From assembly GCA_029834535.1 (NCBI GenBank), contig JAQMWT010000071.1:1-64000 (forward strand): a stretch of DNA of 64,000 bases, in the 5' to 3' direction. Positions 1 through 46,855 of the stretch are shown piece after piece. A program made the translations under genes and the position numbers. The DNA comes from Chrysophaeum taylorii. Lineage: Eukaryota > Sar > Pelagophyceae > Pelagomonadales > Pelagomonadaceae. Numbering within the stretch: position 1 is the stretch's first letter; every line of letters starts with the position of its first letter. Under the pieces are notes generated by a model that had not been told where the DNA came from, did no database searches, and saw nothing but the letters and a program-made list of their open reading frames with translations.

Positions 1-334
1 TCTTGCATGAATTTCATCGTCCAGTGGGTAGCGGTGACTCCCTTCCCAACATCTCTGGAAGCCAAGTTGCACAGAGCGGAGTGTACGCAGGGTGGCGACG
101 CGACACACATCGACGACGACCATTCCGCGTAGGGTAATAAGATTCGATGAACCGTAAGGTTGTAACATAGCGACCACACAGTGTGTGCTGCACCACAGGA
201 ATATTCGGAAAGTTCTTGTGGTGGATCTGGTTGGCGGTGTCCGACGCATCGAGTGCTAGCACGACTCGAAACGACGTCCCACACGTTTCGTTGGCTCGTT
301 GGAGACCTAAAGTACTGCCTCCGGCTCCACTGAA
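1..334 (-). mobile_element. element A: cytosine-5 DNA methyltransferase-like module (start only)
   Basis: Minus-strand coding text directly after the protease region holds the S-adenosylmethionine-binding motif I of C5 methyltransferases (FSGAGGSTLG, 305-334), a following acidic motif with the pattern ALDAS...NFPNIP, and the catalytic motif IV type SPPC (87-98). The same three motifs occur in the same order in element B. The Pro-Cys of motif IV carries the nucleophilic cysteine in this enzyme family (known family property). Only the first part lies inside the window. It is a fossil within a broken element. Calling it a methyltransferase is an inference from motif order and from the matching copy. 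Confidence 0.68.
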
Positions 335-3823: not shown

Positions 3824-3899
3824 GGAACCGTACTCCTCATCGTCGATATCCCGACATAAATAGAAAGACGCTGGGTGATCGAGGTCTTTACACAGGTCT

Positions 3900-13604: not shown

Positions 13605-15384
13605 GTGAGCGAGGGCGTCACGATTGGCGGCATTCGGTTGGCAGGCACCCCGTCAAGAGGTGAGCGAGAAAATCGACAAATGTGCAATAAAATTGAGACT
13701 ATGCTACGTACACGTCACACTCGCGCCATGCCACCCATGCTGTCATGTACTACAGTGCTACATCTCTTGCTGACCACGTTACCCGGCCGACTCGCGTGCA
13801 GCCCTCACCCGTTTCGACGCCGCCGCGGCCCTCGATTCCTACTACCCTGCCGGCGATATTGTGGCTGCGGACCCCTTTGCGACACGCCGCCTGCGTTTAC
13901 CCAGTCGGTTGCGTGGCCTTGGATTTCGCTTGCGTGCCGAGATGCGGCTTTCATCACTGGGACCTTCTGTGCGGTCCTCCCCCGCATGCTCAGCCGCTCT
14001 CCGGCCATGGGCGGCACAGTGCGCGGCTTCTGCGAGCCGCTCGCGCCCTTGCTGGGGCGTAACTCTTTCGACGACGCAGCCAACACGAGCTCGCGCTTCG
14101 CGACCCTTGCGGCGTCCCAACCAACGTCCTTGCTGGCCCGCGCTTTTCTTTTCTTTTCTTTCTTTTCTTTCTGTGGCGCTTGGAGCCGTTTGCAGGCGGA
14201 CGCCGGGAGGCCTGACGAGGGCCCATTGGCCGCGCCAGTACAATGCGCGGGCATTGACACATCGGCCGTAGCCCTGTACGGGAAGGTGCAGCGAGTCGTG
14301 ACGAGACAACGCGAGGCTCTTCGCGCCGAGCGCCTTGAGGCGGACCTTCGTCGTGCTCTCCCTGCGCGTGACGTCCGCAAGGTGGTGTCCTTCCTATGCG
14401 CCGACGACAAACTCTCCACCACCGCCTGGGTGGCTTCATGGCCCTCGCGATATCTCGCATTCTCGAACAAGAGGACTTCCCGCCGGAAGTCGCCGCGGCA
14501 ACTTCCTCCTCGGGCTGCCGTCGCCGGCCTGCGTACCGCTGTCCTGGTGTGGCATTCTTGGCGACAGACACCCAGCAGGTTCTCGACACGTACGGCAACG
14601 TCTTGCTCGCGGACAATCGCTTGGTCAACCGCAACGGAGCTCGGTCCTGCATGGGCTTGTTTTGGAATTGCGTCCCAAGCTTTTCCGGCGTGTGCTTTCC
14701 GTTCTTTCCAGTCCACGTCGAGGCTCGTTCCTGACTTTTCAATCGCAGAGCCACCGGGAACGCCTACTCCGAGCGGTCTCCGCCTCGACGAGGTCAAAAC
14801 GATCGTCTTCTGCCCGTCGCGGTATCCGACCACTCTCGTCGATCGCCGCCGCGAATTTTGGCACCCCGAGCCCGGTCGACAAGCAACGGGCCAACGACAT
14901 TCAACGCGAATACGTCGCGCATGCTGCGTATGCTGACAGGAATTTCTGCGGGGTCGACCCGGCAGCCTCGCGGGGCCCGTTCCGGGACCACGTCACGGAG
15001 TTCGGGTCCGAGCTGGGGTTTGTAGTTGGTAATTTCGCGGAGGATAGTGACAACCTACATGGTCTCCTCCACCGTGTTGCCCGTCGAATTGGCATCAAAA
15101 TCTGCCTCGAGGAGGGTGCTCCTTCCCTTCCCTCGCGGCAGCCACGGCGGCTCAGACAACGCGCCTCTACTCTCTCTCCATCACGGTGCACCTTGAGCGT
15201 GCCCGGCTCCTTCTGGCAGGCATCCAGTATGTCGAAGGCGGTGCAGCCACCGCCCACCTCCTGCAACGACAATACGCACAGGCACACTTCAGGGAGCGCC
15301 AAGGCGCTTACAGAAACGCCAACTTGTTGCCCCTACGTCTGTCTCTCGGCCGCCGGGTCCCTGCACCGGCGCCCGGACGGTTAG
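13605..15384 (+). pseudogene. LINE-B ORF 3' part: RT thumb and restriction-like endonuclease
   Basis: The 13605-14936 frame (443 residues) holds SRSPAMGGTVRGFCEPLAPLLG, then QREALRAERLEADLRRALPARDV, then a restriction-endonuclease-like signature: PD (14730-14735) followed after 18 residues by DEVK (14787-14798) and TIVFCPSRYP. P-D-x(n)-(D/E)-x-K is the core of the PD-(D/E)XK nuclease fold used by R2-type LINEs to cut target DNA (family knowledge). The end of the protein (VDKQRANDIQREYVAHAAYADRN...FRDHVTEFGSELGFVVGNF) continues in the frame of 14335-15384, so a frameshift lies near 14800-14890. A CTTTT microsatellite (about 14147-14170) sits inside the coding part. Confidence 0.72.
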
Positions 15385-15475
15385 GCTAGCTCCGTGCCGT
15401 CCCTATAATCGGCGTAAACCCACTCGTGCTTACACCCACTTACTCCACTCTCCTTTGAGCTCGACGCTCTCACCC

Positions 15476-15567
15476 CCATTTTCCTCTGTGATCCTGGACC
15501 GGCTCCTGCCGGCCCAACCTGTCTCCCATGCCCGGGAGAGGTCCGAAGTTAGTTAGTTAGTTAGTTA
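15476..15567 (+). mobile_element. LINE-A tail insert (TTAG tail) in LINE-B tail
   Basis: A 92-bp insert containing ccggctcctgccgg, tgcccgggagaggtc and the tail gttagttagttagttag. It is flanked by the 10-bp direct repeat gctctcaccc (15466-15475 and 15568-15577), a target-site duplication. It therefore inserted by target-primed reverse transcription after the LINE-B tail was in place. Confidence 0.85.
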
Positions 15568-17024
15568 GCTCTCACCCTCGCCAATCTGAGCTGCTTTGAT
15601 CCGCGCACGTTCGCTAACCTGTAAGTTTACTCTTAACCCGACTGGTAACCTTTGAGCTCGACGCTCTCACCCCCGCCAATCTAAGCTGCTTTGATCAGCG
15701 CACGTTCGCTGACCTTTGAGTTTACTCCTAAAACCACGCACCTGACGTTCGACCTATCGGCATTCGCACCGTCCGCCGCCGTGCCAATGGACGATGCCTT
15801 GTGCGTAGTCTCCACTTCGAGATCTCTGAGGCACTCTACCCGATCAACGTTGTTGTCGGGGTTAAGGGCGACCCCTCGCGCCTCGTCTTTGGCGTCCGCA
15901 CCCACGCGGAGCAGTACCCCGACCAGGTAATCAACAAGCTGGACAAACGCAACGCCTTCAACGAGCTCAAATGTCGGACCGTCGTGGACAAACTCGCACA
16001 CCATGCCAAAGCTAAGCTGCGCGCCTTTGGCCACTTCATGTTCAAGCAATTATACGGCCGGCATCCTGGATGGCACTTCATGGCCCCACCGGCCTCGCTC
16101 GCGCCCCCTTCGACTCTCAAGAAGGCGGCCAGCAAGGCGACCCCACCAACCCACCAGCGTATTGCCTGGTAACGCATGACGCCCCACAGGCCCTTGACTC
16201 CCGCTTACGCTCGTGTGGCGGCTACGCACGATTTGGCATGGACGACGGCGTCATCTCAGGTTCCTCTCATGAGGTTGTCGACGCTCTCCTGCAATACGCC
16301 CGCGACATCCAAGCTAGCGGCGAGGAGCTCCGCCTCGACATGTGCGTAGCGTTCTGTCCGGCACTTGGCACGGGCTTTCTTGATCACCCCGAACGCCACG
16401 TCCAAGTTGCGCCTGACGGCACGCGTACTCTTGCTGGTACCCCCGTTGTCGCCGACGGCCTCGTAATCTACGGTGTGCCCATCGGCTCCCCCGGCCACGC
16501 CGGAGATGCCTATGTCGAAGCTACCTTGCAACGCGAGGTTGACGCTCAGGTGAGCTACATGAGCCGTATTCGCACCAAGCTCCAGAACGTCTCCCTCCAC
16601 TGCATGTACTCGTTGGGCCGCTACTGCATCGCCCCGCGCATGGACTACATCGCGCAGCACTGCTACCCCGCCAATGCCTCCTCGAGCGCGCTCCGCCGCT
16701 TCGACGATGCCGTCCTCAACTTCGCCGCCACAGCACTAGGCGCGGACCCGCGTCAGGTTTTTGACTCCACCAACATCGTCCTTCAACGCCTCCGCCTTCC
16801 TGCTCGAAATGGGGGTGGCGGCATTCGCTCCAGCGCCGACCTCAGCCCCGCCGCCTTTCTTGGCACGGCGACCCAAGCCCCTCCACACCTCGTCGACCTT
16901 CGCGATCCTACGGATGCCGTCGAGGTCTCTGGCTACCTCCCCCGCCTCGCCTCGGTCCTGGGTGCCACCTCTTTTCGCGCAGGCAACGAGTTGCACCGTT
17001 GGCACCACCTCCGGGAAAATTCCC

Positions 17025-19406: not shown

Positions 19407-19752
19407 TGAGGCAGTTACGCCCACTTGCCTGCCTGCCACCTGACTTACCCTGATTGTTGCCCTGGGTATTGACCTTGCATTTATGGGGGGGGGGGGGTGT
19501 CATCTCGACACCCTCACCTGCGCTTCCACTGAAGAACCCAATGTACTACCGGGCATTTGTATCGCTTTCTTGCTGTCTTCTTGATATTACCCTCATTTGA
19601 TTGTCCGATTTTCGCGATGGCGTGAGGTATTACGCTGAGATCGGGCGTGTGGTGGTGGTTTCACCCGCGGTTCGGCGGGTTGGGAGGAAGGGTTGTTGAG
19701 GCCCCCGGTCCGGCGCCAGGAGGGGCGGGTATCTGAGAGAAAAACCACTACA
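19407..19752 (+). repeat. element B 5' LTR
   Basis: 346 bp, begins TGAGGCAGTTACGCCC and ends AAAACCACTACA (TG...CA). It matches 29670-30002 along its whole length. A G-homopolymer near 19486 accounts for part of the length difference. Confidence 0.88.
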
Positions 19753-19753
19753 G

Positions 19754-19766
19754 TGGTCTCAGAAAC
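19754..19766 (+). promoter_or_regulatory. element B primer-binding-site candidate
   Basis: tggtctcagaaac starts 2 nt after the LTR end. TGG complements the CCA end of a tRNA, and tggtNtcaga resembles the complement of methionine tRNA 3' ends used by many Ty3 elements. Not tested against a tRNA set. Confidence 0.5.
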
Positions 19767-20155
19767 GGCGGGAATCGATAGTCCAACAACTCCCGGACTA
19801 TCGATCGATCTCCTGTTTTTCGGCGGCGAGTCGGTTCGTAACGGTCGAGTGAGTGCGAAGCCGACGCATTTGTGGGTGAAGATCCAGAGGATCACGGGTA
19901 CCGCCGCGGGGTTCATTTTACGTGATTCGGATCGAACGGGGAGCGGAGTCACGACGACGACTCATTTTGCATACTTTTGCGTATCGTAGGGCATTGTTAC
20001 AAGACCTAACTAGCTCGCGCGAGGCAGACCACCTCCCTGACGGCGAGCGAGCGACTACACCGGGAAGACCGTCCATAGTCTTCACGCGCAAGGCTACTAC
20101 TTCCATAAGACCAGCGCACCGGTACAGCGTGCAGTAGTCAGACGGCTGCCGACAA

Positions 20156-21736
20156 TTGTCGTCTGACGAAAAGAATACAACAAGTGAGTTGAGAACGTCC
20201 GGAACAAACCCATTATCCGGGCAAATCGCGATCATGGTAGAGAGGCCAATGACAGAACGATCGCAGTGGTTTCGGGACGCACAGGGGCGTCTGCAACGAT
20301 TCAGTGCAGGGACTCCATTTGCGTCTATTGGAAGAACACCGTTCAGTACGCCCTTTCGACGGCCGGAAGCCGAGGAAAGTGGCATCGGAAGAGAGGCAAG
20401 ATCATATGATAGCCTCGACAGCCCCCCAAGCGTGGTCATCCTTCCGGATCCACGCGGCGGCGAAGGGGGAGCTACGGTTGCGTCAGACGCAACTTCAAGA
20501 CCGGGTGAGCCGGCGTTCCCGTACGCACGACCCTACGAACGTGCGATGAATACTACGGAGTCATGTCGAGCGGAACCCGGACCGTTTACGGCGATGCGTG
20601 GACCAGAGGAGAGTGCACCTCCTAGGCCACCATCCGCGAATACGAGAGTTCCGCCAGATTTTCGCGGGGATGTCGACCCCGAGGAGGTTCTGCAGACCAT
20701 CAACGAACGATTCGAGATGTACCAGTCGCAGATGGAGCAAATCATACGTGAACTTGAGAACACCCGCCGCGACGCCCAACAACAACGCTCAGAAGTGGAG
20801 CGACAGCGGATCGACAACGATCGACTTCAGCGAATGATGGAGGAATCCATGCGGGCTCATGCTCGAGAGGCACGGCCAACCTCTCCGAATGCTACGCGTG
20901 TTACGCCCGACGACGATGATGACGCTGTATCGGCACTGACCGACGATCAGCTACCGCGAAGTCGACCGGAGCCTACCCCGCACCATCATACTGTCCCCGG
21001 TTCGGCGCGTCCTCGTGACGAAGGAGAGATACTTCGTGTCAAGAAGGGAGCTGCTGGTATGACACGTCGTATCACATGTTCGAATCTCACGGGGCAAATT
21101 ACCAAGGACCGTGATGAGGTGGACGCGTGGTGGATGCAATTGCGGCGTATGATGGAAGGCAAGATTGATAAACCTTCAATAGCGATGAATGTGATAGGAG
21201 GCGAGTATCAACTCGCCCCTATGGAAGCTTATCGCAAGTGGGAAGTTGAACGGCCGCAGATGTGGAAACAATACAAGGATGGGACCATCACAATGAAAGA
21301 GTTGCGCCAGCATGATGAGGACTGTTTGGATGCTATGCAAGAGGCGACGAAGCTTCCTTGTCCACCTCGGGCTACGGTTGAGGAGCTTGAACGTGAATGG
21401 TTCAATTTACGGCAAGGGAATTTGTCATTGAATAAGTATATCACGCGATGGGTGCAGAAATTCGGCCAGTGGAGAGCAATGTCAGGTCGCGATACTGATC
21501 CGGCTGCGTTCCGTTCGCACTTTATTGCTGGTCTCAATTCTGAGCGCTTGCGGACGAGCGTCGAACTTGCTCAGGCCTCACCGCATATGAAAGCATCTAC
21601 CCTCACCCTCAACGATGTCATTCAATTGACCATCCAAATTTCCACGATTCTGGAAGCCAACCATACTGCCAACATCGAAGATGCGATTAAGAAGGAGAAA
21701 GGAAAGGAGCACGCACCACGGATGAGGAGAGAGTAG
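20156..21736 (+). CDS. element B: gag
   Basis: A 526-residue open frame. A disordered N-terminus is followed by a Gln/Arg-rich coiled coil (about residues 180-235: EMYQSQMEQIIRELENTRRD) and an acidic patch. The C-terminal 200 residues carry the Ty3 gag capsid pattern (LEREWFNLRQGNLSLNKYIT...WRAMSGRDTD...HFIAGLNSERLRTSV). LxREWxxLRQG...Y...F is the retrotransposon gag signature. No zinc knuckle is seen before the stop; a CLSCGRHGSFYHDNGVC cluster opens the next frame and may serve as one. Confidence 0.8.
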   Translation: MSSDEKNTTSELRTSGTNPLSGQIAIMVERPMTERSQWFRDAQGRLQRFSAGTPFASIGRTPFSTPFRRPEAEESGIGREARSYDSLDSPPSVVILPDPRGGEGGATVASDATSRPGEPAFPYARPYERAMNTTESCRAEPGPFTAMRGPEESAPPRPPSANTRVPPDFRGDVDPEEVLQTINERFEMYQSQMEQIIRELENTRRDAQQQRSEVERQRIDNDRLQRMMEESMRAHAREARPTSPNATRVTPDDDDDAVSALTDDQLPRSRPEPTPHHHTVPGSARPRDEGEILRVKKGAAGMTRRITCSNLTGQITKDRDEVDAWWMQLRRMMEGKIDKPSIAMNVIGGEYQLAPMEAYRKWEVERPQMWKQYKDGTITMKELRQHDEDCLDAMQEATKLPCPPRATVEELEREWFNLRQGNLSLNKYITRWVQKFGQWRAMSGRDTDPAAFRSHFIAGLNSERLRTSVELAQASPHMKASTLTLNDVIQLTIQISTILEANHTANIEDAIKKEKGKEHAPRMRRE

Positions 21737-21754
21737 CAGCAGCAGAGGCAGCAG

Positions 21755-23929
21755 TTGCAGCCAGTCCAACGGGTTGGTTATGTTACTGACTCGGGAGTTG
21801 GAACCTGGCTACCACCGGGGATAGATAACCATACGCGTCAAGCAATTACGACGTGCCTCAGTTGCGGCCGGCATGGTAGTTTTTACCACGACAACGGTGT
21901 ATGTCGTGTGCCGGACAATCCCTCGAGGAAGAGGCGTGCTGCTCAGACGTTGACGGCTGCGGGTTTTCCAGCAACGCCAGAGGGACAGGAGCAATACCGA
22001 CGGACGCTTTTAGCTGCAGCAGGACAAGCTTCAGTGACTCAGCTGGCGCCGCGCGTTGTGCAACAGCCGCAGGTGGTCTACACAGCAGCACAGGTGCCAG
22101 GTGCAGGTCAACAGCAGCTGGTTGCAGGCACTCAGCAGCGTTTGGTTGCAGGCTCTCAACAACAGGTGGTCCGAAGGCAGCCCGCAGTGCAGCGGACCGC
22201 TCAGACCTCGGTGCGCCTGGAGGATCTGACTACGGCTCTCAACACGATGAACTTGATTCGTCAGGCACAGCAGACGACTCCGCCGGGCAGAGGGCGACAG
22301 TCTCAGAGAGCGAACCCTAGCCAGCACAATGATGGTGTCGCCGCTCAGTGGCTTGAAGTGCTTGGCGAAGATCAGGATGACACTAAGCGAGCGGACTACT
22401 GCACTGTGCAGTATTCTGAGCTCATGGAGGGAAACGTGTATGACGATGACGAGGTTGGGGGCGATGATGATAGCTTCTCTGCAGAAGGCTATTCCCCTGG
22501 TGACCCCATGGAACCTCCTTCCTTTTTGGTCATCACTGAAGATGCATGGGTGGAGGAGCAGGAGCAAAGTACCGAAGTGACTGGAGTTGCATCTAGAGTT
22601 CTTTCGGAAGACGAAGATAATCGTGACGAATTGGGGTATACGATTGTTCGTGTGGGACAAGATACCTTGGTTGCCATGGATATAGTGCCACCGAGGGACG
22701 ACTGTGCCGAGCGTTATGTTGCTCACCCTTCTATCTCTACGGATTTCGAGAATTTTTGCCCTCAGACTGCGTTGAATATCACTCAGGATCCCGACCATCG
22801 TGAAAATAAAGCCGTAAGGTACGATGGCACGAGATCCGCCTCTTTGACGTATGTGCCTGCGGCCATCTCTTCGCAAGATGGGTCGAAATATTCCATCATC
22901 GCTGCCGGTTTGGATGGCATGGGTGATTCCCCCTACATCGATCACCGCTTGTATCGCAAACTTGATCGTGACGGCAAAATCATCTATCGTCAGCCACTCC
23001 CTACTATTCGTACTCTAAATGGATCAGGAGGTTCAGGGGCTGCTATTCGAGAATGGGTCATTCTCCGGATCTCCTTGGTGCCGACGACATCCATGCCGCT
23101 CATGTTCTTCGTTGGTCAAACGAATGGGCAGTTACTATTAGGAGCACAAGAATTACGACTCTTGGGTACGATTTTGGATTATGCGACAGAGAGAGCTATT
23201 TTTCGGCGTTCTGAAGTGACCATTGGAGTTCTCGAGAATCGGACTTCCGCCTCGCCACAAGACCAGCATGGAATTGTCCTTTACAATGATGCATTCGATG
23301 CGACTCCGCAGGTAGTGCAGATGTTCCCGACAGCTAAGCTTGCTGTGCAATACGGAAATGTCCAAACTTGGACGCCAGTTGGTAAACCGTGGAGTTATGA
23401 CAGTCTATTGCGTTCTATTCGTATCAGAGCGAATCACCATCACATTCCTCCCGGTCATCAGACTGCTGGAAAAGCTGAAGACCAACTCGAATGCCCTGCA
23501 GACGAGGAAGATATCATCCCTCATTTCGCGTACGTGACGAGTACTCGATTTCTTCTTCCAAACCAACCGTACTTCTTGGAGATGGAGTGCGATGTGCCGC
23601 TGGAAAAGAGTCACGTATTCCGACCTTATCGGTCACTCCTCAAAGATCTCCGCCTTGTACCTGGTTCCTATTCATCGTATTGTGCTGATGAGCCCAACGA
23701 AGTTCATGTGGCTGTGGAGCACATTGGTGACGAACCCATTGGTATCGACCCCGAAGTCCCGGTGGTCGAAGGCGAGATCATGCCGCATGAAGGATGTGTC
23801 AACATGCAGCTAGAAGCCACTGATGACGTGTGTCATGCCACTCTTACGGCTGCTGTTGACGACGATGAAGTCGAGGAGGATGTCTTGAGTGACAGACCCC
23901 TCCTCAGCCACCTCCAGATGAAGAAGTGA
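21755..23929 (+). CDS. element B: nucleocapsid-like and protease part of pol
   Basis: A 724-residue open frame overlapping the end region of gag. It opens with a Cys/His knuckle-like cluster (CLSCGRHGSFYHDNGVC), continues through a Gln-rich linker (about residues 105-190) and an acidic stretch, and then a retropepsin-like domain (about residues 365-490: IIAAGLDGMGDSPYIDHRLYRKL, later GQLLLGAQELRLLGTILDY). The same domain with the same spacing occurs in element A. It would mature the particle proteins (family knowledge). Confidence 0.7.
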   Translation: MQPVQRVGYVTDSGVGTWLPPGIDNHTRQAITTCLSCGRHGSFYHDNGVCRVPDNPSRKRRAAQTLTAAGFPATPEGQEQYRRTLLAAAGQASVTQLAPRVVQQPQVVYTAAQVPGAGQQQLVAGTQQRLVAGSQQQVVRRQPAVQRTAQTSVRLEDLTTALNTMNLIRQAQQTTPPGRGRQSQRANPSQHNDGVAAQWLEVLGEDQDDTKRADYCTVQYSELMEGNVYDDDEVGGDDDSFSAEGYSPGDPMEPPSFLVITEDAWVEEQEQSTEVTGVASRVLSEDEDNRDELGYTIVRVGQDTLVAMDIVPPRDDCAERYVAHPSISTDFENFCPQTALNITQDPDHRENKAVRYDGTRSASLTYVPAAISSQDGSKYSIIAAGLDGMGDSPYIDHRLYRKLDRDGKIIYRQPLPTIRTLNGSGGSGAAIREWVILRISLVPTTSMPLMFFVGQTNGQLLLGAQELRLLGTILDYATERAIFRRSEVTIGVLENRTSASPQDQHGIVLYNDAFDATPQVVQMFPTAKLAVQYGNVQTWTPVGKPWSYDSLLRSIRIRANHHHIPPGHQTAGKAEDQLECPADEEDIIPHFAYVTSTRFLLPNQPYFLEMECDVPLEKSHVFRPYRSLLKDLRLVPGSYSSYCADEPNEVHVAVEHIGDEPIGIDPEVPVVEGEIMPHEGCVNMQLEATDDVCHATLTAAVDDDEVEEDVLSDRPLLSHLQMKK

Positions 23930-23942
23930 AAAAACACCAGAA

Positions 23943-25165
23943 ATGGAGATGGAGGCGACTGTTAAGGAGCTGCTATCTAAGCACGCCTCCTTGGTTTGGA
24001 TACCCATCACCTACACCTTTGTCGTCGTCTACTTTGCTGGCGCTGGAGGATCAACGTTGGGTATCCGGCGATGCAATGAGCTATATGGCAGTTCATTTCG
24101 CATTGTCCTGGCTTTGGATGCTTGTCCTCAAGCCCGAGCCACCTTTGAACTCAATTTTCCGAAGATTCCCTATGTTTTGCATGAGTTGGGGAAATCTCAT
24201 CGTCGTACATACGACTTGGTGTTGTCGTATTTACACTCAGATTTTTAAAGCACTCTTATTTTCACGCCAGTCCGCCGTGTATCTATGGATCGACTGCCAA
24301 TTTGCACTACAGGGACGCACGCAAGGGCGCTACTATTACTTCTTGGGTCCTGCGTCATTTCCGCAACGCACCTTATGTGATTGGACGATGGACGCTCGAG
24401 CAGGAACCATCAGTGATCCCTTTTGTGCATCACCAATTTTATGTGCCGCGTATTGTTGATTTCTATAGTATCACGCCAGAGCTGCTGTGCTCGCGCACGC
24501 GCCTACTTGCTTGCAATGTTCGCTTGGACCTGCCGTTATTATCGCGTGTACCACCGAATTTACGGGACCGTTTTGGCCCAGCGTTGGGATTTACAGGTGG
24601 TCACCCGCTCATTATAGTGAACAGTTTCTCATCTACGCGCCCGGCTATCGGCCCTGCCTTCACGGTGACGCGCAATAAGCTCCGCTTAGGACCTCATTTC
24701 TCGAACACCCGTCCACTCACATTACAGATGCACCAGGAAATTATGACCGTTCCTGCTACGTGGCAATGGGGTGCGACAGTTTCCGAGACAGTAGCTATGA
24801 AGATGCTTGGCAGTATGGTGCCACCCGCGACTATGACGCGGATTGCGCTAGCAGTGCACAATTCGTTTGAACCTTCACTTCGAAATTTGGGTAAGTTGCG
24901 GAATATTGCGACGACTACGCTAGCCCAACCTGATCACCGTATTCTACGGTTTTCACCTTTTGCTGTAGAGTCGCGCATTCCAACGCTCGACCCTGCCACT
25001 CGAAGTGTATCATGGATTGCGCCCGATGAACTCTATTCTCCTGCGAGTCCTGCACCATCAGCTGCCCACCACCCCGCCACCGCCTTCAGTTACATCGCCT
25101 GGGACGGCTTCATCTTTTGCAGGGGGCACCGTCGCCACTGCTGTTATGCAGAGCAACCAAGTTGA
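23943..25165 (+). mobile_element. element B: cytosine-5 DNA methyltransferase-like module
   Basis: Coding text between protease and RT carries the ordered motifs of C5 DNA methyltransferases. Motif I is FAGAGGSTLG (24033-24062). It is followed by ALDACPQARATFELNFP (the acidic SAM-contacting strand and the NFP turn), a motif IV-type SPPC (24269-24280), and a late block near 24720-24850 with LTLQMHQEIMTVPATWQW (motif IX-like) and GSMVPPATMTRIALAV (motif X-like; compare GNAVPP in classic enzymes). The target-recognition part between them has no recognisable sequence, as is usual. The product would transfer methyl groups to cytosine C5 in DNA. The module is broken, with a small number of breaks. 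Motif I, the NFP region and SPPC recur in element A. Confidence 0.72.
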
Positions 25166-25167
25166 TA

Positions 25168-27541
25168 ACCAGCCCTCCGCAACTGCTGAAGAAGAAGGCA
25201 CCGCGAAAGAGCGACCAGCGTATTTCAATACGTACGACGTTCCGTGGGCGGACGCGCCTCACGACGAACATGGTCAACCTTCACCGGTGATGCCTCCTCA
25301 TTTAGCGGATCAGGAGAGCATGCAGGTCATCCCTCCGACCGTCGAGCAGGTCGAAGAGGTGATGACTGAATTGGGTATTACAGAGCATCCTGCTTTAGAT
25401 GATGACGAGAAGCTGATGATGAAGCATTTAATCTCGTATTCGTGGGCATTTTTCGATGATGTGATGAGACCTGTTGATTCACCTGAAGTGACGCTCCGGT
25501 TCAAAGAAGAGAACCCGACTCCCGTCAAACTCTCGCCATATCGGTTGTCGAAAGAAAAGATTGAATGTTTGCGGATGCAGATTGAAGCGTGGACCCGAGA
25601 CGGAGTTATTCGTCCCGCGAATTCTCCATGGGGGTTCCCTATTTTGATGTTGCCTAAGAAAGGTGCTGAGCCTGGCACTTCCAATGCTTACAGCGCAGCT
25701 GTCGACCTACGGCGCCTCAATGCATTGCTCAAGGATGATAGCTGGCCGAGTGTGAGCATGGCTGACGCGTTGATGTTTCTCATTGACAAGTTTTGTCGTT
25801 CTAACTTAACTAACTTCAGACCTCTCCCGAGCATGGGAGCCAGGCCGGACAGGCAGGAGCCGATCCGGAATCACGGAGGAAAATCACGCAGTTGGGGCTG
25901 AGGCGAGAGACGAGGACTCGTTGATGACGGACCGCCACTGCGCGCGGTCTTGTGCGAAGTCGTGCAAAAGCGTCGCAGGCCGCAAACGTGTTGGTCCACG
26001 AACAATCGACCTGTCCGTCGCGTTCTGCCCAACCGAGCGAACCCCATCCCAGCTCGGACTTTCCGGGTGCTAACCGGCCAGCCCGGGAGGCGAGCAGGCA
26101 CCGTCTCACTCCGGGACGGCCGGGGCCGCCGCAGGGAGCAAGCGTGCTAGGCGCCGTCCTCCATCGCAACCAACGGTTAGCGATCGCAGGGTTAGGGGTA
26201 TGTCGTTCCAGTTTGGATATTCGTTGGGGCTATCACAATTTACGATTGTCGCTGGATGCACAAGATGTGGTCACCTTCACTAGTCCTCTGGGAGCGTACA
26301 GATACATGCGTCTACCTTTGGGAGTCAAACCAGCCGGAAGTTTGTTTTGCAAGCAGTTGAACACTGACTTGTCGCAATGGCTATATCGTGACCTCGTGGC
26401 ATATATCGACGATATTCTCGCCGGTCACGCAGATACAAAGAATCACTTGCAGTGCCTTGTGCAAGTTATTCCCCATCTCGCCTTGAAGGGGTACAGCGCC
26501 AAGATCAAGAAGATTCATTTTATGCAAGAAGTCATTGAGTTTTTGGGTCATTTATCTACCCCGAACGGACTTCTTCCATCACCAAGATCTTTAGAAGCCA
26601 TCAGACACATGCCAATTCCTGGCACTTTGTCGGATGCTGACCCTAAGAAGCAAGTGCGATCTTTCCTTGGAATGGGGAGCTTTTGCCGGCGTTATGTAAG
26701 GAATTTTGCGAAAGTTGCAGAGCCATTAAGACAACTGACGTTGCCGGACGTGAAATTCAAGTGGACGAAAGAGTGTCAGGAAGCTTGGGATGCCATCATC
26801 GAGGCTATTGTCACGTCGAAGGGCGTCTACCATCCTGATTACTCGTTGCCTTTTTACATTCGAACTGATGCTTCCGCGCATGGGTTGGGTGCTTACCTAT
26901 TTCAAAAAGTACCAGTCGTTGACGACGATGGAAGAGAAAGAATCGAAGAGAGAGTTATCGAGTACTGGAGTCGAACCGTGCCTAAGTCGATGAGGAAGTA
27001 TGATCCTCGGCGCTTGGAACTCCTCGCAGTACTCTCTGCTCTCGAAAATTTCCGATTTTATATCGAAGGTCATCATACGAAGTTAGAGACGGATCATCGT
27101 AATTTAACGTTTCTGCGGGATTCGAATCATACGTCTGGACAGTTAGCACGATGGGCCATGCGGCTAGCTGCGTTCGACCGGGAGCTCGGATACAAGCCTG
27201 AAAGCTCCCCTGGCATGCGTATTCCGGATTGTCTGTCGCGCAACCCTATCGACAAATTGATCGAGAAAGATGAAGACGGGGAACCGATCAATGAAGCTTT
27301 TTTGATTTTCCAAGAAATCCCCACCGATGTCCCTGGCACCGCTTGCTTCACCTTCTCTTCGGTGACGATGCCTATGCTGACGGACAGCGGACCCACCGCA
27401 GCTATGGTAGCAGTTAGTACGCGACAGAACGTACAACCGCCTCAATTCTCGTACGAATCTGAGCCAGTTGACTCCGTCGAACGTCTCCCTTTTGCGGATC
27501 AAGCGGAGGATGAGATCACTCTCGATGAGTTGATGAGATAG
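25168..27541 (+). CDS. element B: reverse transcriptase and RNase H
   Basis: The region is open on both sides of a LINE-A insert at 25802-26200. Before it lie the RT fingers (KLSPYRLSKEKIECL, GVIRPANSPWGFPILMLPKKG). After it come LDIRWGYHNLRLS, LGAYRYMRLPLGVKPAG and the catalytic YIDDIL (near 26402), then the connection FLGMGSFCRRYVRNFA. The Ty3-type RNase H follows (IRTDASAHGLGAYLFQ, RRLELLAVLSALENFRFYIEG, TDHRNLTFL). These are the standard Ty3/gypsy motifs in standard order. Confidence 0.88.
25802..26200 (-). mobile_element. LINE-A 5'-truncated insert in element B reverse transcriptase
   Basis: The reverse complement ends with the TTAG-type tail (ctaacttaactaactt at its left end) and is bounded by the 8-bp direct repeat tgtcgttc (25794-25801 and 26201-26208). 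On the minus strand it holds the C-terminal LINE motif HDFAQDRAQWRSVI followed by the 3' UTR. About 399 bp, about 90-95% like the insert at 28535-28936. Confidence 0.9.
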
Positions 27542-27651
27542 CGAAAGAACAAGCTGAAGATGAAACATGCAAGCGCATCAGACGAAAGCTCGATTCGGAA
27601 CAGAAAGATCAAGACGAGCAGTCATCCGTACCATATGAAATTGATGACAAC

Positions 27652-28554
27652 GTGTTGTATAAGGTCGATGATTCAGCTTCTCAACGTCTTATTGTAGTCC
27701 CTCTGTCTATGCAGAAACGTGTGATCGCCATGCATCACCGAGGCTTGTTCGGAGGCCATGTAGGACGAGATTCCACAGCGAATCAAATCTTAGAACGGTA
27801 TTGGTGGCCAAACGTCTCATCATCCGTTAATGAGTTCGTCAATGCCTGCATTATTTGCCAGAAGATTCGATCCACCATGCCTAAGCGCCATGGCTTGCTC
27901 TGTCAACCGAATCGCGTCGGAGACTGCTATGTCCTAGGTATGGATTTGATTGGACCTCTACGAGGCGCTGACCTGTACACGTACATACTCGCAATGTACG
28001 ATGCAGCATCACATTTCTTGAAATTAGCTCTGATCAACACGAAGCAGGATTATTCGATTTTGAACGCGTTTGTGGACAAGATTTTACTTGAGGGATGTCT
28101 CCCGCGGTGCATAGTCACGGATAATGGAAATGAGTTCGCGAACAGGTTATTTCGCACGTTTGTTCGTCAATTCAACGCACGTTATCGTACTACCCTTCCG
28201 TATCACCCTCAGAGTAATCATACTGAGCGTGTCAATCGATTCATCAAAGCCTTCTTGCGAGCTGCGATCGATGAACAGCGTCAACCAGATTGGTCGAATT
28301 TCCTCCCATATGTGTCATTCATGTACAATAGGATGTACATTCCGGGAACGAAGATTTCACCTTTCATGATGCGTACTGGCAAGCAACCCCTGTTACCACC
28401 CGATTACAATCTTTTGAGTGAACAGCGTGATCTACCGCAATCACGTCATCAGATTTTGGTGGACTTTAAGAACAAGTTTGAATTTTATAGTCGACTCGTT
28501 ACACGAGCTCATCAGAAAGCACAGAAGAGTCAAAAACTCATTTTAACTAACTAA
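27652..28554 (+). CDS. element B: integrase catalytic part
   Basis: HHCC zinc-binding domain (MHHRGLFGGHVGRDST ... CIICQ), then a DDE catalytic core: GMDLIGP (first D), IVTDNGNEF (second D) and HTERVNRFIKAFL (E). These are the diagnostic retroviral-type integrase residues. The frame ends at the LINE-A insert. Confidence 0.88.
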   Translation: MLYKVDDSASQRLIVVPLSMQKRVIAMHHRGLFGGHVGRDSTANQILERYWWPNVSSSVNEFVNACIICQKIRSTMPKRHGLLCQPNRVGDCYVLGMDLIGPLRGADLYTYILAMYDAASHFLKLALINTKQDYSILNAFVDKILLEGCLPRCIVTDNGNEFANRLFRTFVRQFNARYRTTLPYHPQSNHTERVNRFIKAFLRAAIDEQRQPDWSNFLPYVSFMYNRMYIPGTKISPFMMRTGKQPLLPPDYNLLSEQRDLPQSRHQILVDFKNKFEFYSRLVTRAHQKAQKSQKLILTN

Positions 28555-28936
28555 CTAACTTCAGACCTCTCCCGAGCATGGGAGCCAGGCCGGACCGGCA
28601 CGAGCCGGTCCGGTATCACGGAGAAAATTCACGCAGTTGGGGCAGAGGCGAGGGACGAGGACTTGTTGATGGCGGACCGCCACTGCGCGCGGTCTTGTGC
28701 GAGGTCGTGCAAGAGCGTCGCAGGCCGCGGACGTGTTGGTCCACGAACAATCGACCTGTCCGTCGCGTTCTGCCCAACCGAGCGAACCCCATCCCGGCGC
28801 GGACTTTCCGGGTGCTAACCGGCCAGCCCGGGAGGCGAGCAGGCACCGTCTCACTCCGGGACGGCAGGGGCCGCCGCAGGGAGCAAGCGTGTTAGGCGCC
28901 GTCCTCCATCGCAACCATACGGTTAGCGATCGCAGG
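28535..28936 (-). mobile_element. LINE-A 5'-truncated insert in element B integrase
   Basis: Same sequence type and orientation as 25802-26200: ctaactaactaact at the left end, cccgagcatgggagccaggc, and on the minus strand HDLAQDRAQWRSAI. The boundaries are approximate; gtcaa occurs on both flanks but the duplication is not clean. Integrase text is continuous on the two sides. Confidence 0.85.
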
Positions 28937-29374
28937 GTCAACTATGATGCCCACCAAGTTGACATCCAGTTTCCCCCGGGTGATTATGTTCTGCGTTTCG
29001 TGCCTAAAACACGCCACAAGCTACGGCCCATTTGGCGCGGACCTTACATGGTTACTAGAAAGATCTCTCCCGTCGTTTATGAAATTCGAGACGTTAACGA
29101 CGATGATGCTGAGTCGGTTGTAGTATCTGTACAACAACAGATTGTGCCTTTGAAAGTGCCAACCATCGACACTTCTTCAGCCCCTCTACATTTACCCTCG
29201 GACCGCGACCGGTTCAAACATGGCAAGTTCGTGATTTTTTTCAGGGTGAAAGGACGATCCAACGCGTGGAAGAAGCGTATCTATGATGTTGCCGAAGTCT
29301 ACGAAGAATATGACCACGACAATGATACAGTTGCGCTTCACTATTATACCGATTTGGGACCACGCGATCGATGA
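28937..29374 (+). CDS. element B: integrase C-terminal domain and possible chromatin-binding tail
   Basis: VNYDAHQVDIQFPPGDYVLRFVP ... KLRPIWRGPYMVTRKISPVVYEI is the GPY/F-type C-terminal domain of Ty3/gypsy integrases. It is followed by a basic/aromatic block (WKKRIYDVAEVYEEYDHD ... VALHYYTDLG) that could be a chromodomain- or SH3-like fold. That last point is a guess from composition. Confidence 0.7.
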   Translation, partial: VNYDAHQVDIQFPPGDYVLRFVPKTRHKLRPIWRGPYMVTRKISPVVYEIRDVNDDDAESVVVSVQQQIVPLKVPTIDTSSAPLHLPSDRDRFKHGKFVIFFRVKGRSNAWKKRIYDVAEVYEEYDHDNDTVALHYYTDLGPRDR

Positions 29375-29669
29375 TCCTCGCGTCTTTGACCCTACTAAGC
29401 CTCTTGCTGAGCGGCGCTTAAGACCAGAATACAAAGATCCTGACGGAGGTAGCTTCACACGCCTACGACCAAACATGGAGGGCTGTGAACCCTGTGCGAC
29501 TGATTTTCGCCCGGATGAAATCGATGTCCTCGTCACTAACTTCGATCTCCACAGCAACAAAGTTCCTGCTGATGTAGCTGAACGAGCTTATCGTACCATT
29601 CGTGAGCGTGACCTTCGTCTTACCCTTGAAGTCGAGGACGACTTCAACTCAAGTAGGGGGCTCCTCTCC
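29283..29669 (+). CDS. element B: extra C-terminal region of unknown role
   Basis: Open text between integrase and 3' LTR: DDPRVFDPTKPLAERRLRPEYKD ... PNMEGCEPCATDFRPDEIDVLV ... ERAYRTIRERDLRLTLEVEDDF. It has protein-like composition with conserved-looking Asp/Pro turns but no domain I recognise. Position after integrase is where Ty3-like elements can carry env-like or accessory genes; no membrane segment is seen, so env is unlikely. Confidence 0.45.
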
Positions 29670-30002
29670 TGTGGCAGTAACGCCCATTTGCCCCCGCTTG
29701 CCTGCCTGCCACCTGACTTACCCTGATTGTTGCCCTGACTACTGACCTTGCATTTATGGGGGTGTCATCTCGACACCCTCACCTGCGCTTCCACTGAAAA
29801 ACCCAATGTACTACCGGGCATTTGTATTGCTTTCTTGCTGTCTTCTTGATATTACCCTCTTTTGATTGTCCGATTTTCGTGATGGCGTGAGGTATTACGC
29901 TGAGATCGGGCGTGTGGTGGTTTCACCCGCGGTTCGGGTTGGAAGGGTTGTTGAGGCCCCCGGCCCGGCCAGGAGGGGCGGGTATCTGAGAAAACCACTA
30001 CA
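29670..30002 (+). repeat. element B 3' LTR
   Basis: 333 bp, TGTGGCAGTAACGCCC to AAAACCACTACA, matching the 5' LTR. It is followed by ccac, as found before the 5' LTR. Confidence 0.88.
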
Positions 30003-30599: not shown

Positions 30600-31830
30600 G
30601 AGAATGGTGCCACTCTGAAGGCTAGATGTGTCGCAAAAAAGGCTCCTTAGCCCGCCCGAGTCGGACTGGACTCTTACAGTGTGTACTCACCGACAACGAT
30701 GCTGGCTACTGGTAATCGCTACACACAATCGGCTGCTGTACACAACTGTGATGTGCCACAAGCATTCATACGAAACCCCATCAACAGGACCTACATGGGT
30801 GGATCTCCCTAACGGCGTAAAAGTAAATCCTGAAATTATAGCAAAAAAGTTTCGACAAATCAACCCGAAAGGGGAAATAATTGCCTTCAGATTGATCATC
30901 AGGCCGCTTTATATACTCCAATCGTCCCCTCTTCGCCAAGCACTTGATCAAGTTCCTGACAGACATTGGCTTCACCCGCAGCAGCAGCAGCAGCAGGAAT
31001 GATGATGCCACACTATTCACGAGTCATGAGGCTGTTACCAACAAGTGGTGTGCAATCACAGCATTCGTTGATGATCTGCTGATAGCAGGCTAACTAACTA
31101 ACTAACTTCGGACCTCTCCCGGGCATGGGAGCCAGGCTGGGCCGGTAGTAGCCGGTCCAGGATCACAGAGCAAAAAATCACACAGTTGGGGTAAAAGCTT
31201 GGGATGAAAGTGCATGGATGGCGGACCGCCACTGCGCGCGGTCTTGTGCGAGGTCGTGCCACGAGTTGAAGGGGATGTCGCATTTCCGGAGTGCCTTGGC
31301 GAGCGACCTCCCGTACGTCATCTGCGGAGCCCCCGGTGGGCGCTTGGAGCGGACCCAAGACGAGAGCATCTTGCGAGGGAGTCGGGAGAAGGGCATGCGG
31401 GCGACGTGACCGGCCCAGCGGAGCTGGCGGCGCGTGACGTAGACGTCGATGGACTCGAGGCCGAGGCGCCGCCGCAGGATCTCCGTTGAGATGTGGTGGG
31501 ACCATTATTCAGCTTATTCAAAAAGTGAAAGACGCGTTCTTCAAGGCATGTTGTGAAAGCGTTAAGTAGTGGGCGGAAAATGCCAAATCAATTTTTGGTC
31601 TCAATTGCACCTATGACACGGGGTGTTCATTCACAATAAGCGCTGGATCTAAAGTCAGAGAGCTTCTCTCTCTAAATCTTGGAGAACTCTCAACTAAACC
31701 CGTCCCGCCCCATTCGGATTTCAAAGACCTGCAAAAGAAGAATCACATTCCACACCTATACAAGCAAAGAGTACTCATTCCAGTCGATGTGTGACTCACA
31801 TATATACTTTGAGTATCATAGTCAGGCCGT
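30600..31830 (+). mobile_element. Ty1/copia reverse-transcriptase fragment, split by LINE-A
   Basis: LKARCVAKK, YSPTTMLATGNRYTQ and HNCDVPQAFI (near 30630-30770), TWVDLPNGVKVN, and AFVDDLLIAG (near 31060-31090) are the ordered copia RT motifs; VDDLL is the catalytic aspartate pair. After the LINE-A insert (31091-31499), text such as IIQLIQKVKDAFFKA and FGLNCTYDTGCSFTISAGSK continues the copia RT toward RNase H. Fossil with several breaks. Confidence 0.72.
31091..31499 (-). mobile_element. LINE-A 3' end with C-terminal ORF part
   Basis: The left end is ctaactaactaactaacttc (the tail). The minus strand encodes the typical C-terminus of clade RTE/Jockey-like LINEs: RRLGLESIDVYVTRRQLRW, AGHVARMPFSRLPRKM, GAPQMTYGRSLAKAL and HDLAQDRAQWRSAI. 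This is the most informative copy for naming the family. It interrupts the copia RT. Confidence 0.85.
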
Positions 31831-33717
31831 TTGGTTAGAAGTGACACACAAACCCAGACCATATGGACTGGTCGTTGGGGCGGGTCCCAATCGTAGATTT
31901 TCGGCGCGCAGCTCTTGTCGTCTTCTCTTGCGGGTCAAAATCGTTGATTTTCGGCAAGTCTCTTGCCGGGATTTCCGGTCTCGGCGATCCATTTTTTCTT
32001 GTCGCAGCGTTCGACGTATCGTCCTTCTGCTCATCGTCTGTTGCCGGCGACTCAATCCAATTGCGGTTCGGCCAACACTTCCTTCCTTCAGCACTTCGAA
32101 AACATAAGCGTCGGGGGTCCATGACGTGCGTTCGACTCTCGTTCTCCATGCCGCGTCTCGCGGCCGTCTTCAAAGTTTCGTTTTTGGGTACCCCGAAATT
32201 CGTTTAGTGGAGCAGCGTACTCGATCGGTCATGCCACCCTCTACCACGATGATGATCTCGTCCGCTTCGATGAGCTACATGTCGCTCGGCTATAAACTGA
32301 CGAAAGATGCTGCTCTTACGAAAACGTCCGACTCGTCAGTCGTTTGTGAAGTGTCGCTCCCTCGACTCTCTGCTACGGCTCCGCGTGAGGTTGCCGCAAG
32401 TCTCTCGGCCACTCTTGATGTTCTTCCGCAATGGCTGCGTAGTCCCCCACAACGTACGGCGGCAAGAGAGCAAGGAGGGGTACCGCATATATACGCAAGA
32501 GATCCGAGCGGGGCACTCGCCTTCTTACTTTTGCCTCGCACACACCACCAACATATCGCTGCTTGAGCCGGAATGATTGTTTTGTGGTTAATAAGATCGC
32601 ATGACAGCAGTTGGTAGGCGTTGAAGATTTTAAGGGTAAGGAGAGAGGAGCAGGAGCGTTACAACAAAAGCGAGCGTGGGAGCGCTTGAAGAAACCCGGG
32701 CAGCTGTGCCCTCGCCGCCGCCCTCAGCTATGTCGCCGACGAGAGGTCGACCAGCCCCACCCAGGCCGCCACACTGACGTCGTCCCACATATGTCCGTCC
32801 AGCGGTGTGACATTCGGACGGGGCCCGTGATCTCTTCGCCCGCCCCGTGGCTTGGCGATGACGCTGCCTTTCAGGGATAAAAGCGACAACAAACACGCTT
32901 CACGGGCGGCGGCGGCGGCTGCGGCTTATTGAGGTGACAGACAGAGCGGGGTTTCTCTAGGTCCCGCATACCTGTCTACGCCCGTCAGGCACATCCCTCC
33001 TACCCCACAAACCACACACGTCCTTCATGCGCCCCCCCCCCGCTTACAACAGTCGACGACCTTTATTAAAAAAAAGTCCGGACTTAGAAGTTTAGAATTT
33101 ATACAATTGAGGTCAAGCGACTTCTGATTGTGGAACCCGCTCTGCGAGAAATAAACACCCTACTAGATCCGAAAACGCCGTTGTGGGTGGCGTCGATATG
33201 CTTGAAGAAGTGGCCAAACTGGCTGGGCGACCTCGTAGCCACACCCATGGTAAGCGGCGCTGCGGCGCGCGAATTTGTATGTGTCGCGTGGGCGGCGGTG
33301 TTTGGAGGCTGTCTGGGGATGTCACATTCGCGATCCTTTTTATCGGGTCGCGCACCTTTTTGGGCTGGCCACCCTAAGTGCACCTCCAGCTCGATCCCCG
33401 AGGACTTGGACAGGGCCTTGATGCACTTGGGAAGAAGCAGCCGGCGCAGCATTTATCGCGTCGAGGGTTCGGGGACTCCGTATATTATTGCTGTAAGATC
33501 CCGAGGCGAGCATAAGCCACTAACCCGAAACACCCCGATGATTTCAAGTCGATCAAGGTGCGCCTCGCGACATTAGATGCGTTGATCTCATATAATACAT
33601 CGCAGCTCGGGCGTTCTGCCTTCCTTCGTGAGCAACCCCACGTTCTTTCTGGATGACATCATCGAATGCGGTTGCCCACGTCGGGATGAGCGCGTCTCTC
33701 TTCCACATTCATGTCGA
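31831..33717. other. no firm gene; several unrecognised open stretches
   Basis: Candidates without a recognised domain: 32307-32576 (+), LDSLLRLRVRLPQVSRPLLMFF and YRIYTQEIRAGHSPSYFCLAHT; and 33099-33452 (-), KCIKALSKSSGIELEVHLGW and SQFGHFFKHIDATHNGVFGS. The second has a better-than-random composition and may be an exon of a host gene. C- and GGC-rich simple runs lie near 32910 and 33030. Confidence 0.3.
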
Positions 33718-33840
33718 GGGTTTTAGGAGTAAACTCAAAGGTTAGCGGGGGTTGTGATCAAAGCAGCTTATTAGATTGGCGGGGGTGAGAGCGTCGAGCT
33801 GAAATGAGATCTTAACGAGGACGGCAAGCCGTTAGCGGCG
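33718..33840 (-). repeat. LINE-B 3' tail, solo copy
   Basis: gggttttaggagtaaactc ... gatcaaagcagctta ... agattggcgggggtgagagc ... ggacggcaagccgttagc. It extends a little further toward the ORF than the other solo tails (the ggacggcaag block also precedes the tail in copy 3). Confidence 0.78.
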
Positions 33841-34697
33841 AGGATTTAGGTGGTTGCGCGGGTTAAAAAAAGTTGTGCGACGACGATGCCTAAGGACGGT
33901 CTTTTTGCGTGGCGTGTTGTTTAGCGGCGATTTGAAGGTGGTGCGGCGGCTGGTCGGATGTCGTGAACCAGATGACGACGGGGCTGCTCGCCTCTTATTT
34001 GGGCCGCCGTAGGCTGTGAGTTCGAGGCTGCATTTGATCAGTGCCGACGTTCTTCTTCTTCTTCTTCTTCGAAGGCGGCCTCGACGATATGGTAGGTAGC
34101 TCGAAAAAACAACGGTACCCCTCCGATTCTGATGGTGCTGACTTTACTATTATTATAGTGCTCGCGTCGACCACGCCGACAATAATGATGGGAGGTCGCG
34201 CTCGGTTGTTCTTACGGAGCGTCGCGGTTCGACTTGGGGGTGCTGTGAGTCGCCAAGGCCATCTTGATATCTGTGGTCCTCGACCGCGGAGGATCTCGAC
34301 AAAGCGGCCGACAGCGGGCTTTGTATGTCCGAAGCATCGGCAAATCTTCTTATCCGAAGCGTCGGCCAACGCACGACGGGTTCTTCACGAGTCGGTGTTT
34401 GCTCGAGTCGATCCGGGCCACCCACGCTGGAGCGTACGGCGTCATCGCAGTATATTTTGGAGGCGGGCGTCGAGACCTTTTGTTGGTTTCCGCTGACACC
34501 CGCCGCCGCCGCCTGATTTACGACGGCGAGACGGTCATCGACGCTGGTATTAATTGGTGAAAAGTAAAAAAAAGTTCGTTTCAAAGTGTTTTTTTTTTTG
34601 CTAGTCGTAGTAGCTTGAATAATGTGACGTACTACTTACTACTACTACTACGTATATCTAATAAAGTGTGTTGAGAAACGACGGCTACTACTAAGAG
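33841..34697. other. no firm gene; possible ankyrin-like exon and unassigned ORFs
   Basis: A short plus-strand stretch near 33930-33990 (SGDLKVVRRLVGCREPDDDG) looks like one ankyrin repeat. 34264-34560 (+) reads YGVIAVYFGGGRRDLLLVSADT with unknown function. CTA/TAC trinucleotide runs lie at 34640-34660, just before the OSCP1 gene, in what is probably its 5' leader. Confidence 0.3.
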
Positions 34698-35780: not shown

Positions 35781-36389
35781 CGCCCGCCGCATCTATCGTT
35801 TCTTGTCCGTTGATCAGTGGAGTCGCTGAAAAGTCAGACGCGGGTCGAGTACTAATTTTAAATTGGAGTTGAGAGCGGTCGTGCAGCGCGAGGTAGGTAG
35901 TCCGTCCATGTGCGTAGTAGTGGCCAAAAGAGTACGCGCAGTCTGGAGAGCTCATGTGCTGGAGCTTGGTGATCCTCAATCTCGCGTTGCAAGCTAGGCA
36001 TCCCCGGCGGGGGATGGCACACCGTAGAAAGAAAGCGAGGCCGTTGGCGACACCGGGAATAGCGTCGTCGACAACCCCGAAGAACCTGAGAAGGACGGCG
36101 AAAGTCCAACACACCGATGCCCTCGCAGGAGCTGTCGAGATGAGCGAGGCGGGGCTGGAGCTGTGCAATTGGGGGCTGATTTTGTAACGACGAGCTGATG
36201 ATGACACTCTCGCACTTTTTTCAACGTCAGCAGCAATCACGTAATTGAGAAAGTCGGGTTATTATTAGTTCGCTATACACGTCAGCAAAAACAGTGCGCG
36301 AGGGTACGGTGTTTGGTAATCAAGCACACACCGCCGGAGGTGCCTGCCTGCTGTGTGCTCGACCCCGCGTGGCAGGTGCGACAAATCCA
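35781..36389. other. no firm gene
   Basis: A minus-strand open stretch (35773-36240) contains a hydrophobic part (VCWTFAVLLRFFGVVDDAI) and SYAFGHYYAHGRT-like text, and plus-strand frames are also open. I cannot choose between them. Confidence 0.25.
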
Positions 36390-46694: not shown

Positions 46695-46855
46695 AAAGTT
46701 TTTTTTTTCGGGATGGTGATGCTTACCACCCACCCCCGAGTTTTTCGAAGAAGAGGTGTCCTACCTACCTACCTACCTACTACGAAGTTGAGGTTCCCCG
46801 CAAAGGAAGGGAAGGGAAGGGAAGGGAAGTGTGATCTGGTCCTCCTGCGTACGTC

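Follow-up and report, generated by a model that had tools for sequence, protein, structure and literature searches.

Organization of the element B locus

The window analysed here is the whole stretch of 64,000 nt, positions 1–64000 of contig C71 in an assembly of 70.8 Mb in 697 contigs. It contains a decayed LTR retrotransposon, element B, at 19407–30002 on the forward strand, with a length of 10.6 kb that includes two later insertions of ~400 bp. Its assignment to the Ty3/gypsy superfamily in the first-pass annotation is borne out by reverse transcriptase (RT), RNase H and integrase regions that follow one another in that order between direct LTRs. The 5′ LTR (TGAGGCAG...CACTACA; 19407–19752) and the 3′ LTR (TGTGGCAG...CACTACA; 29670–30002), with ends read by eye, have TG...CA termini and, also by eye, CCAC on the outer side of each. 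They are 98% identical in a 164-nt core and 90% identical, with gaps, across 333 columns. A candidate primer binding site that starts with TGG, picked by eye, lies directly inside the 5′ LTR (19754–19768).

The coding regions of element B are all on the forward strand. The gag ORF (20138–21736) matches PF03732 below the cut-off (E 0.0047) and stops at a TAG codon; the homologous frame of a close relative elsewhere in the genome, L041, continues past that point. The following segment (21737–23929), assigned by eye, would comprise the C-terminal part of gag and a retropepsin-like region containing the triad D-G-M. Retropepsins usually have D-T/S-G at this site, and no Pfam protease match was obtained in the window ORF or in L041. 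By eye, D-G-M is found in the protease-like regions of the gypsy families (L041, 1610–7045; L043) and D-G-G in that of the copia element L037. Downstream of the protease-like region are the two halves of the methyltransferase (MT) domain described below, and then a linker and the N-terminal part of RT (24969–25801). The C-terminal part of RT and RNase H occupy 26201–27541 (ORF 25928–27541; PF00078, E 1.4e-13; PF17917, E 1.8e-26). The integrase H2C2 zinc domain and rve core span 27529–28538 (PF17921, E 1.9e-17; PF00665, E 4.7e-7, with 30.4 bits under the cut-off of 32.6), and the C-terminal part of integrase lies at 28940–29374 (ORF 28670–29374; PF22938, E 2.6e-6).

The two ~400-bp insertions, one within RT (25802–26200) and one within the integrase region (28539–28939), are two copies of one repeat, a diverged relative of which lies near 31174–31259. 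The repeat starts near CTAACTAACTTCAGACC, its flanks overlap by 8 bp at the first insertion site, and pieces of it match many other loci; it matches no Rfam family at the gathering score. Together with the stop in gag and the location of the MT halves in two frames, these insertions identify element B as a broken copy. Aligned with L041 in two pieces, one of 5947 and one of 2338 columns, it is 97% identical.

A methyltransferase domain in the gypsy polyprotein

The first-pass annotation placed a cytosine-5 (C5) MT module between the protease and RT of element B. Our analysis supports this placement, next to the protease-like region, and indicates that the module is a trait of the whole family. 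The N-terminal half (23922–24245) contains motif I (FAGAGG) and the acidic strand LALDACPQARATFELNFP. The C-terminal half (24239–24913) is in another frame, that of ORF 24185–25165, in which SPPC, EQE, SRTRLL, a motif IX-like segment and GSMVPP are found in the 24185–25162 interval; every motif named in the first-pass annotation is thus present in the DNA. The C5 MT motifs follow the order I (FxGxGG), IV (PPC), VI (ENV), VIII (RxR), IX and X (GN.VPP). In the gypsy MT, motif VI reads EQE instead of ENV, a replacement of Asn by Gln.

A search with the Pfam C5 MT model, PF00145, had been proposed as a check. The second half of the window domain taken alone falls below the curated cut-off of 22 bits (18.4 bits, E 0.0016), but relatives in the same genome exceed it. 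Within their long polyprotein frames, L041 and L042 score 30.7 and 32.0 bits, respectively, and the L041 MT scores 36.1 bits as an isolated domain. All four members of alignment A1 match PF00145 with a best E of 1.3e-9 (a bit score is given for the first member only). A profile built from four MT domains of the second gypsy family, family A, gives 254–259 bits for L041 and L042 and 85 and 156 bits for the N- and C-terminal halves in the window. Among 200 shuffled versions of the L041 MT, the same profile reaches at most 3.9 bits. It gives 6.7 bits for a host DNMT2-like protein, and it reports neither the copia MT nor the DNMT5-like domain described below at E ≤ 10.

The arrangement is clearer in the relatives. 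In L041 (contig C345), a single 1812-residue frame contains late gag, the protease-like region, the MT (residues ~986–1295) and RT (RVT_1, 49.1 bits). This element is itself incomplete as a single frame: gag starts in other frames, and further ORFs downstream encode RNase H and integrase. L042 (contig C225) has the same domain order. Among ten gypsy copies compared, nine have motif I (F-G-GG), ASPPC, EQE and RTRLL or RVRLL. Eight are open throughout and also contain the motif IX-like segment and SMVPP or SVVPP; L044 (contig C187, family A) is open as far as motif VIII and then out of frame, and the tenth copy, L046, is broken and retains parts of the motifs. Across the MT, families A and B are 39–42% identical, with F-G-GG, D56, ASPPC, EQE and RxRLL invariant. 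An AlphaFold model of the window MT piece, made with only two sequences in the input, has a mean pLDDT of 32.9, too low to inform on a class I methyltransferase fold.

A member of family A is also present in the window. Element A (3–4883, reverse strand) has gag-like, protease-like and MT regions in the same order as element B. Its MT (340–3; FSGAGG, ASPPC) is broken across frames and ended by the contig edge. An open relative, L043 (contig C5), carries the domain within a 3063-residue frame, and L044 belongs to the same family.

Copy number and spread

The survey for further copies found at least 130 family-B and at least 127 family-A MT loci after merging, more than 250 gypsy loci together, and the idea of a private insertion in one copy fails on these counts. 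In these genome searches the best 101–150 of 474–1021 candidates were scored, with 123–127 scored in each search that used a gypsy MT as query, so that misses are not absences. The L041 MT, to which the window C-terminal half is 99% identical, gave at least 133 matches as query. The window MT piece also gave at least 133, some of which are two pieces of one locus, and the L043 MT gave at least 127 at 79–100% identity. The family-B total results from merging the full set of 133 rows obtained with L041 and 28 picked from the 133 obtained with the window piece. Contig pairs C10/C297 and C25/C521 look duplicated, so that double counting of a small number of loci is possible, and extracted loci were at most 10 kb, so their ends are incomplete.

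The association with RT was examined at 150 of 151 RT matches (122 family B, 28 family A). An MT match lies no more than 3.5 kb upstream at 101 of the 122 listed family-B places and upstream at 14 of the 28 listed for family A, where the misses include C187, a contig that does have the MT. The longest open frames holding an MT are 2129 residues in family B and 3067 in family A. In several copies (C26, C411, C540 and others) the MT is 99% identical, which indicates that family B spread recently together with its MT.

Selection on the methyltransferase

Between L041 and L042, dN/dS by the Nei–Gojobori method is 0.063 for the MT, 0.077 for RT and 0.187 for the protease–linker stretch, with the limits of RT and linker set by hand. 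Comparisons of the L041 MT with L042, L045 and L050, members of a sister subfamily, give 0.063–0.075. Between two family-A subfamilies the range is 0.044–0.059 (six pairs), and L043/L044 gives 0.062 in another alignment. All these values are rough, because dS is near saturation between subfamilies (pS 0.66–0.73) and beyond it between families. Close copies scatter from 0.08 to 2.9 (seven pairs, pS < 0.12), with 0.87 for L042/L045 (pS 0.018) and 2.9 for L045/L050 (pS 0.004) among the very closest. Against L041, the window MT piece gives 0.32 and the broken L046 gives 0.56. Amino-acid change in the gypsy MT is clearly held back as it is in RT, the signature of purifying selection. Like DNMT-bearing retrotransposons in the sense of PMC5890265, these gypsy elements carry the MT in their own coding frame, in many copies and under purifying selection.

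Copia and host methyltransferases

A genome search with PF00145 found at least 57 places; among the matches listed, 55 correspond to an MT of a Ty1/copia-type family (42 assigned by counted overlap, 13 by overlap checked by eye) and two are host-like. The gypsy MTs are absent from this scored list, which is a limit of that search. After merging, at least 101 copia-type MT loci were counted. In the 1952-residue frame of L037, the MT (residues 349–475; PF00145, 32.1 bits) precedes integrase (17.2 bits, under the cut-off) and RVT_2 (133 bits). Of the 17 other loci in the set of 18 from L023 to L040, 13 have a downstream integrase part and nine an RVT_2 part, both identified as matches to the L037 pol. 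By eye, the copia MT retains PCQ and ENV, and neither motif I nor motif X is clear in it. Its dN/dS is 0.11–0.36 (15 pairs among six stop-free copies).

The copia and gypsy domains occur in the same genome and both follow a protease-like region; the copia MT lies ahead of integrase and RVT_2. Comparison of the two by hhalign gives a probability of 0.1%, and the lack of recognizable kinship beyond PF00145 makes two captures likelier than one. The window holds a copy of the L037 family that lacks the MT part of pol (61340–63951, reverse strand). In this copy gag is joined straight to late pol, as in an MT-less deletion derivative.

The two host-like genes are of different types. The gene at L021, which we take to be DNMT2-like from its motifs, matches PF00145 across the entire domain (69.6 bits); none of the seven surrounding ORFs scanned has a Pfam match. 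The gene at L022 (4268–9997) is DNMT5-like, open for at least 1910 residues, with PF00145 and SNF2 domains. Given this gene, a host C5-methylation system probably exists. Pelagophytes and dictyochophytes are among the groups for which DNMT5a has been reported (PMC9998398), and the DNMT5 of C. neoformans is described as maintaining methylation without starting it (PMC9246332).

Kinship of the gypsy methyltransferase

Protein searches returned no relative of the gypsy MT at E ≤ 0.001, either for L041 residues 1020–1330 (1130 candidates) or for alignment A1 (6458 candidates); candidates were chosen by shared exact 5-residue words and length range, with E calculated for 5.8 billion sequences, a procedure that can miss distant relatives. 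Viral contigs gave no MT relative at E ≤ 0.001 among 27 pattern matches, and a plasmid search for MT relatives gave nothing. Against the PDB, phmmer reported only 8yf3_A for the gypsy MT (E 0.25); the copia MT matched no MTase. A profile search of the PDB with the gypsy MT gave four weak matches, of which the best is 8yf3_A (E 0.012), labelled as a cytosine-specific methyltransferase, and two are DNMT2-type chains. In hhalign comparisons with the two host enzymes, the gypsy MT profile has weak similarities to the DNMT2-like (24%, E 8e-4) and DNMT5-like (0.2%) proteins.

CpG content and transitions

Observed/expected CpG ratios are close to 1 in the family-B elements (L042, 1.03; L041, 1.04; element B, 1.09) and in the L037 frames (1.04). 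The family-A elements have higher values (L044, 1.18; L043, 1.38; element A, 1.47), and those of five host genes range from 1.37 to 1.51. Per site, CpG transitions number 0.034 between the window copy and L041 (other contexts, 0.024–0.048) and 0.059–0.109 in five copia pairs (other contexts, 0.028–0.112). They are up to ~3-fold above those at CpA and less far above those in other contexts, and CpT is often equal. CpG is therefore undepleted in the element stretches measured, which carry no strong sign of heavy, lasting CpG methylation. The lower CpG content of family B and copia elements relative to host genes may be a matter of composition or else a faint mark left by methylation.

A model for the role of the methyltransferase

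What has to be explained is an MT present between the protease-like region and RT in many copies, with conserved catalytic motifs and under purifying selection. We favor, with a probability of roughly 55%, a model in which the clade of gypsy families A and B acquired one C5 MT that is an active DNA methyltransferase. On this sequence-based model, a single domain would have been taken up before the two families split and then kept in Gag-Pol between protease and RT. It would be made and packaged as part of Pol, and could methylate cytosines in newly made element DNA, at insertion sites or in sister copies, before or after integration. Fresh copies would then bear the host's kind of mark, or be restrained by it, and the gain to the element might be disguise as self, protection of its cDNA or self-restraint. 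The occurrence of two LTR superfamilies, each with an MT, in a compact 71-Mb assembly suggests that methylating nucleic acid confers a real advantage on an LTR element. The small genome and the DNMT5-like enzyme make this question answerable by one methylome.

The substrate might instead be RNA, with m5C placed on the element's genomic RNA or on its tRNA primer and not on DNA. The gypsy profile is nearer to the host DNMT2-like than to the DNMT5-like enzyme in the hhalign comparison (24%, E 8e-4, against 0.2%), the DNMT2-like protein is the only one of the two that the family-A profile reports, weakly, and DNMT2-type chains make up two of the four weak PDB profile matches; RNA methylation has also been proposed for the SymbioLINE enzymes (PMC5890265). 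These DNMT2 similarities are all weak, however, the best PDB profile match carries the cytosine-specific label, and the sequence that follows the catalytic Cys in the DNMT2-like protein (SPPCQPHTRQ) is, by eye, not common to the gypsy MT. We consider an RNA substrate possible but unlikely. A similarly low likelihood attaches to a catalytically dead domain that Pol retains for a structural or nucleic-acid-binding role. The change of Asn to Gln in motif VI, the modest PF00145 scores and a spacing ahead of PPC that seems unusual would all fit such a loss of activity. They have to be set against the retention of the PPC Cys, the Glu and the Arg pair in nine of ten copies from families only 39–42% identical, and against a constraint equal to that on RT in the pair tested, L041/L042.

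If the gypsy MT is active on DNA, as we favor, its targets could instead be competitors: other elements, DNA viruses or sister copies would be silenced, and copy-number control or host protection would be what is selected. Two unrelated LTR superfamilies with MTs in one genome are consistent with this idea, and an antiviral role has been proposed for such accessory domains (PMC6338049), but the 99% identical MTs on several contigs indicate recent spread, and we judge silencing of competitors rather improbable. That the resemblance is due to chance, or to a host gene privately inserted in one copy, could have been argued from the sub-threshold score of the second MT half in the window. With more than 250 gypsy loci carrying the domain and shuffled sequences at no more than 3.9 bits against 254–259, this explanation is refuted for practical purposes.

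A broader and quite doubtful extension of the favored model is that de novo cytosine methylation comes mainly from the retrotransposon MTs of the two LTR superfamilies, with host DNMT5 copying the marks at replication. The idea arises because, outside elements, only the DNMT5-like and DNMT2-like genes occur among the PF00145 matches listed. If true, the methylation pattern of this genome would be written by its parasites.

Relation to known elements

The first-pass annotation pointed to retrotransposons with C5 MTs from some charophytes and dinoflagellates, and the precedent is real: in Symbiodinium, LINE and DIRS elements have been described as carrying DNMTs, and in Klebsormidium a gypsy element (de Mendoza et al. 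2018, PMC5890265). The SymbioDIRS-Dnmt3 enzymes are reported to carry out de novo CG methylation in yeast; the Klebsormidium gypsy enzyme was inactive in the yeast test, a result that the authors call inconclusive (PMC5890265). The closest parallel is KnitGypsy-Dnmt3 of Klebsormidium nitens, which like element B encodes a C5 MT in the gypsy Pol frame, is intronless like the gypsy MT here and has its MT under purifying selection (Ka/Ks < 0.2; PMC5890265). According to the same source it groups with Dnmt3 and has DIRS-like repeats, whereas element B has ordinary direct LTRs and an MT as yet unassigned to any DNMT class. A further difference is that here two families together account for more than 250 loci, in a host with DNMT5-like and DNMT2-like genes. 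SymbioDIRS-Dnmt3 and SymbioLINE-Dnmt resemble the present case in their hundreds of DNMT copies and in the use of more than one retroelement class per genome, but their carriers are DIRS and LINE elements, not Ty3 and Ty1 LTR elements (PMC5890265).

A 2025 survey names DNMT3 members carried by LTR Copia elements and by DIRS elements, and also describes orphan DNMTs (PMC12344493). As here, these orphan and retrotransposon DNMTs are lineage-restricted and carried by mobile elements. The survey places the carriers in streptophytes and dinoflagellates (the charophyte element is Gypsy in PMC5890265), and its section on element-borne DNMTs mentions no stramenopile LTR case. DIRS elements with Dam-like N6-adenine methyltransferases likewise have an accessory MT, one structurally unrelated to the C5 enzymes (PMC5890265). 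Gypsy and DIRS elements encoding DAM or DCM are listed for Stramenopiles too, in a text that leaves unstated which kind occurs where (PMC6338049). In the open-licence literature as far as consulted, we found no report of C5 MTs in LTR elements from stramenopiles. Judged from its sequence, element B is likely a separate case from the known enzymes: the host group is apparently new, the MT lineage is as yet unplaced, and two LTR superfamilies in one genome carry such domains. It would represent a further capture of a C5 MT by retrotransposons, in a host apparently outside the dinoflagellates and charophytes.

Other features of the window

The first-pass annotation regarded the host as an apparent stramenopile. 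A 759-residue E1 dehydrogenase-like protein (46835–49111) is consistent with this view, although one protein does not prove it. Its highest-ranked named relatives are from pelagophytes, namely Pelagophyceae sp. CCMP2097 (72% identity, 89% coverage), Aureococcus (70%) and Pelagomonas (68%), closely followed by Guillardia, Tribonema and Diacronema; unnamed proteins rank higher (best 120 of 777). Neither Rfam at its gathering threshold nor a tRNA scan gave a match in the 64-kb window. Inverted pairs of 82–320 nt with 91–95% complementarity, apparently another repeat in two opposed copies, lie at 13847–15574 and 31080–37586. Ten tandem repeat copies with a spacing of 111 bp (6934–8232) are located within an ORF (6741–8768) that contains FAST-kinase-like and RAP domains.
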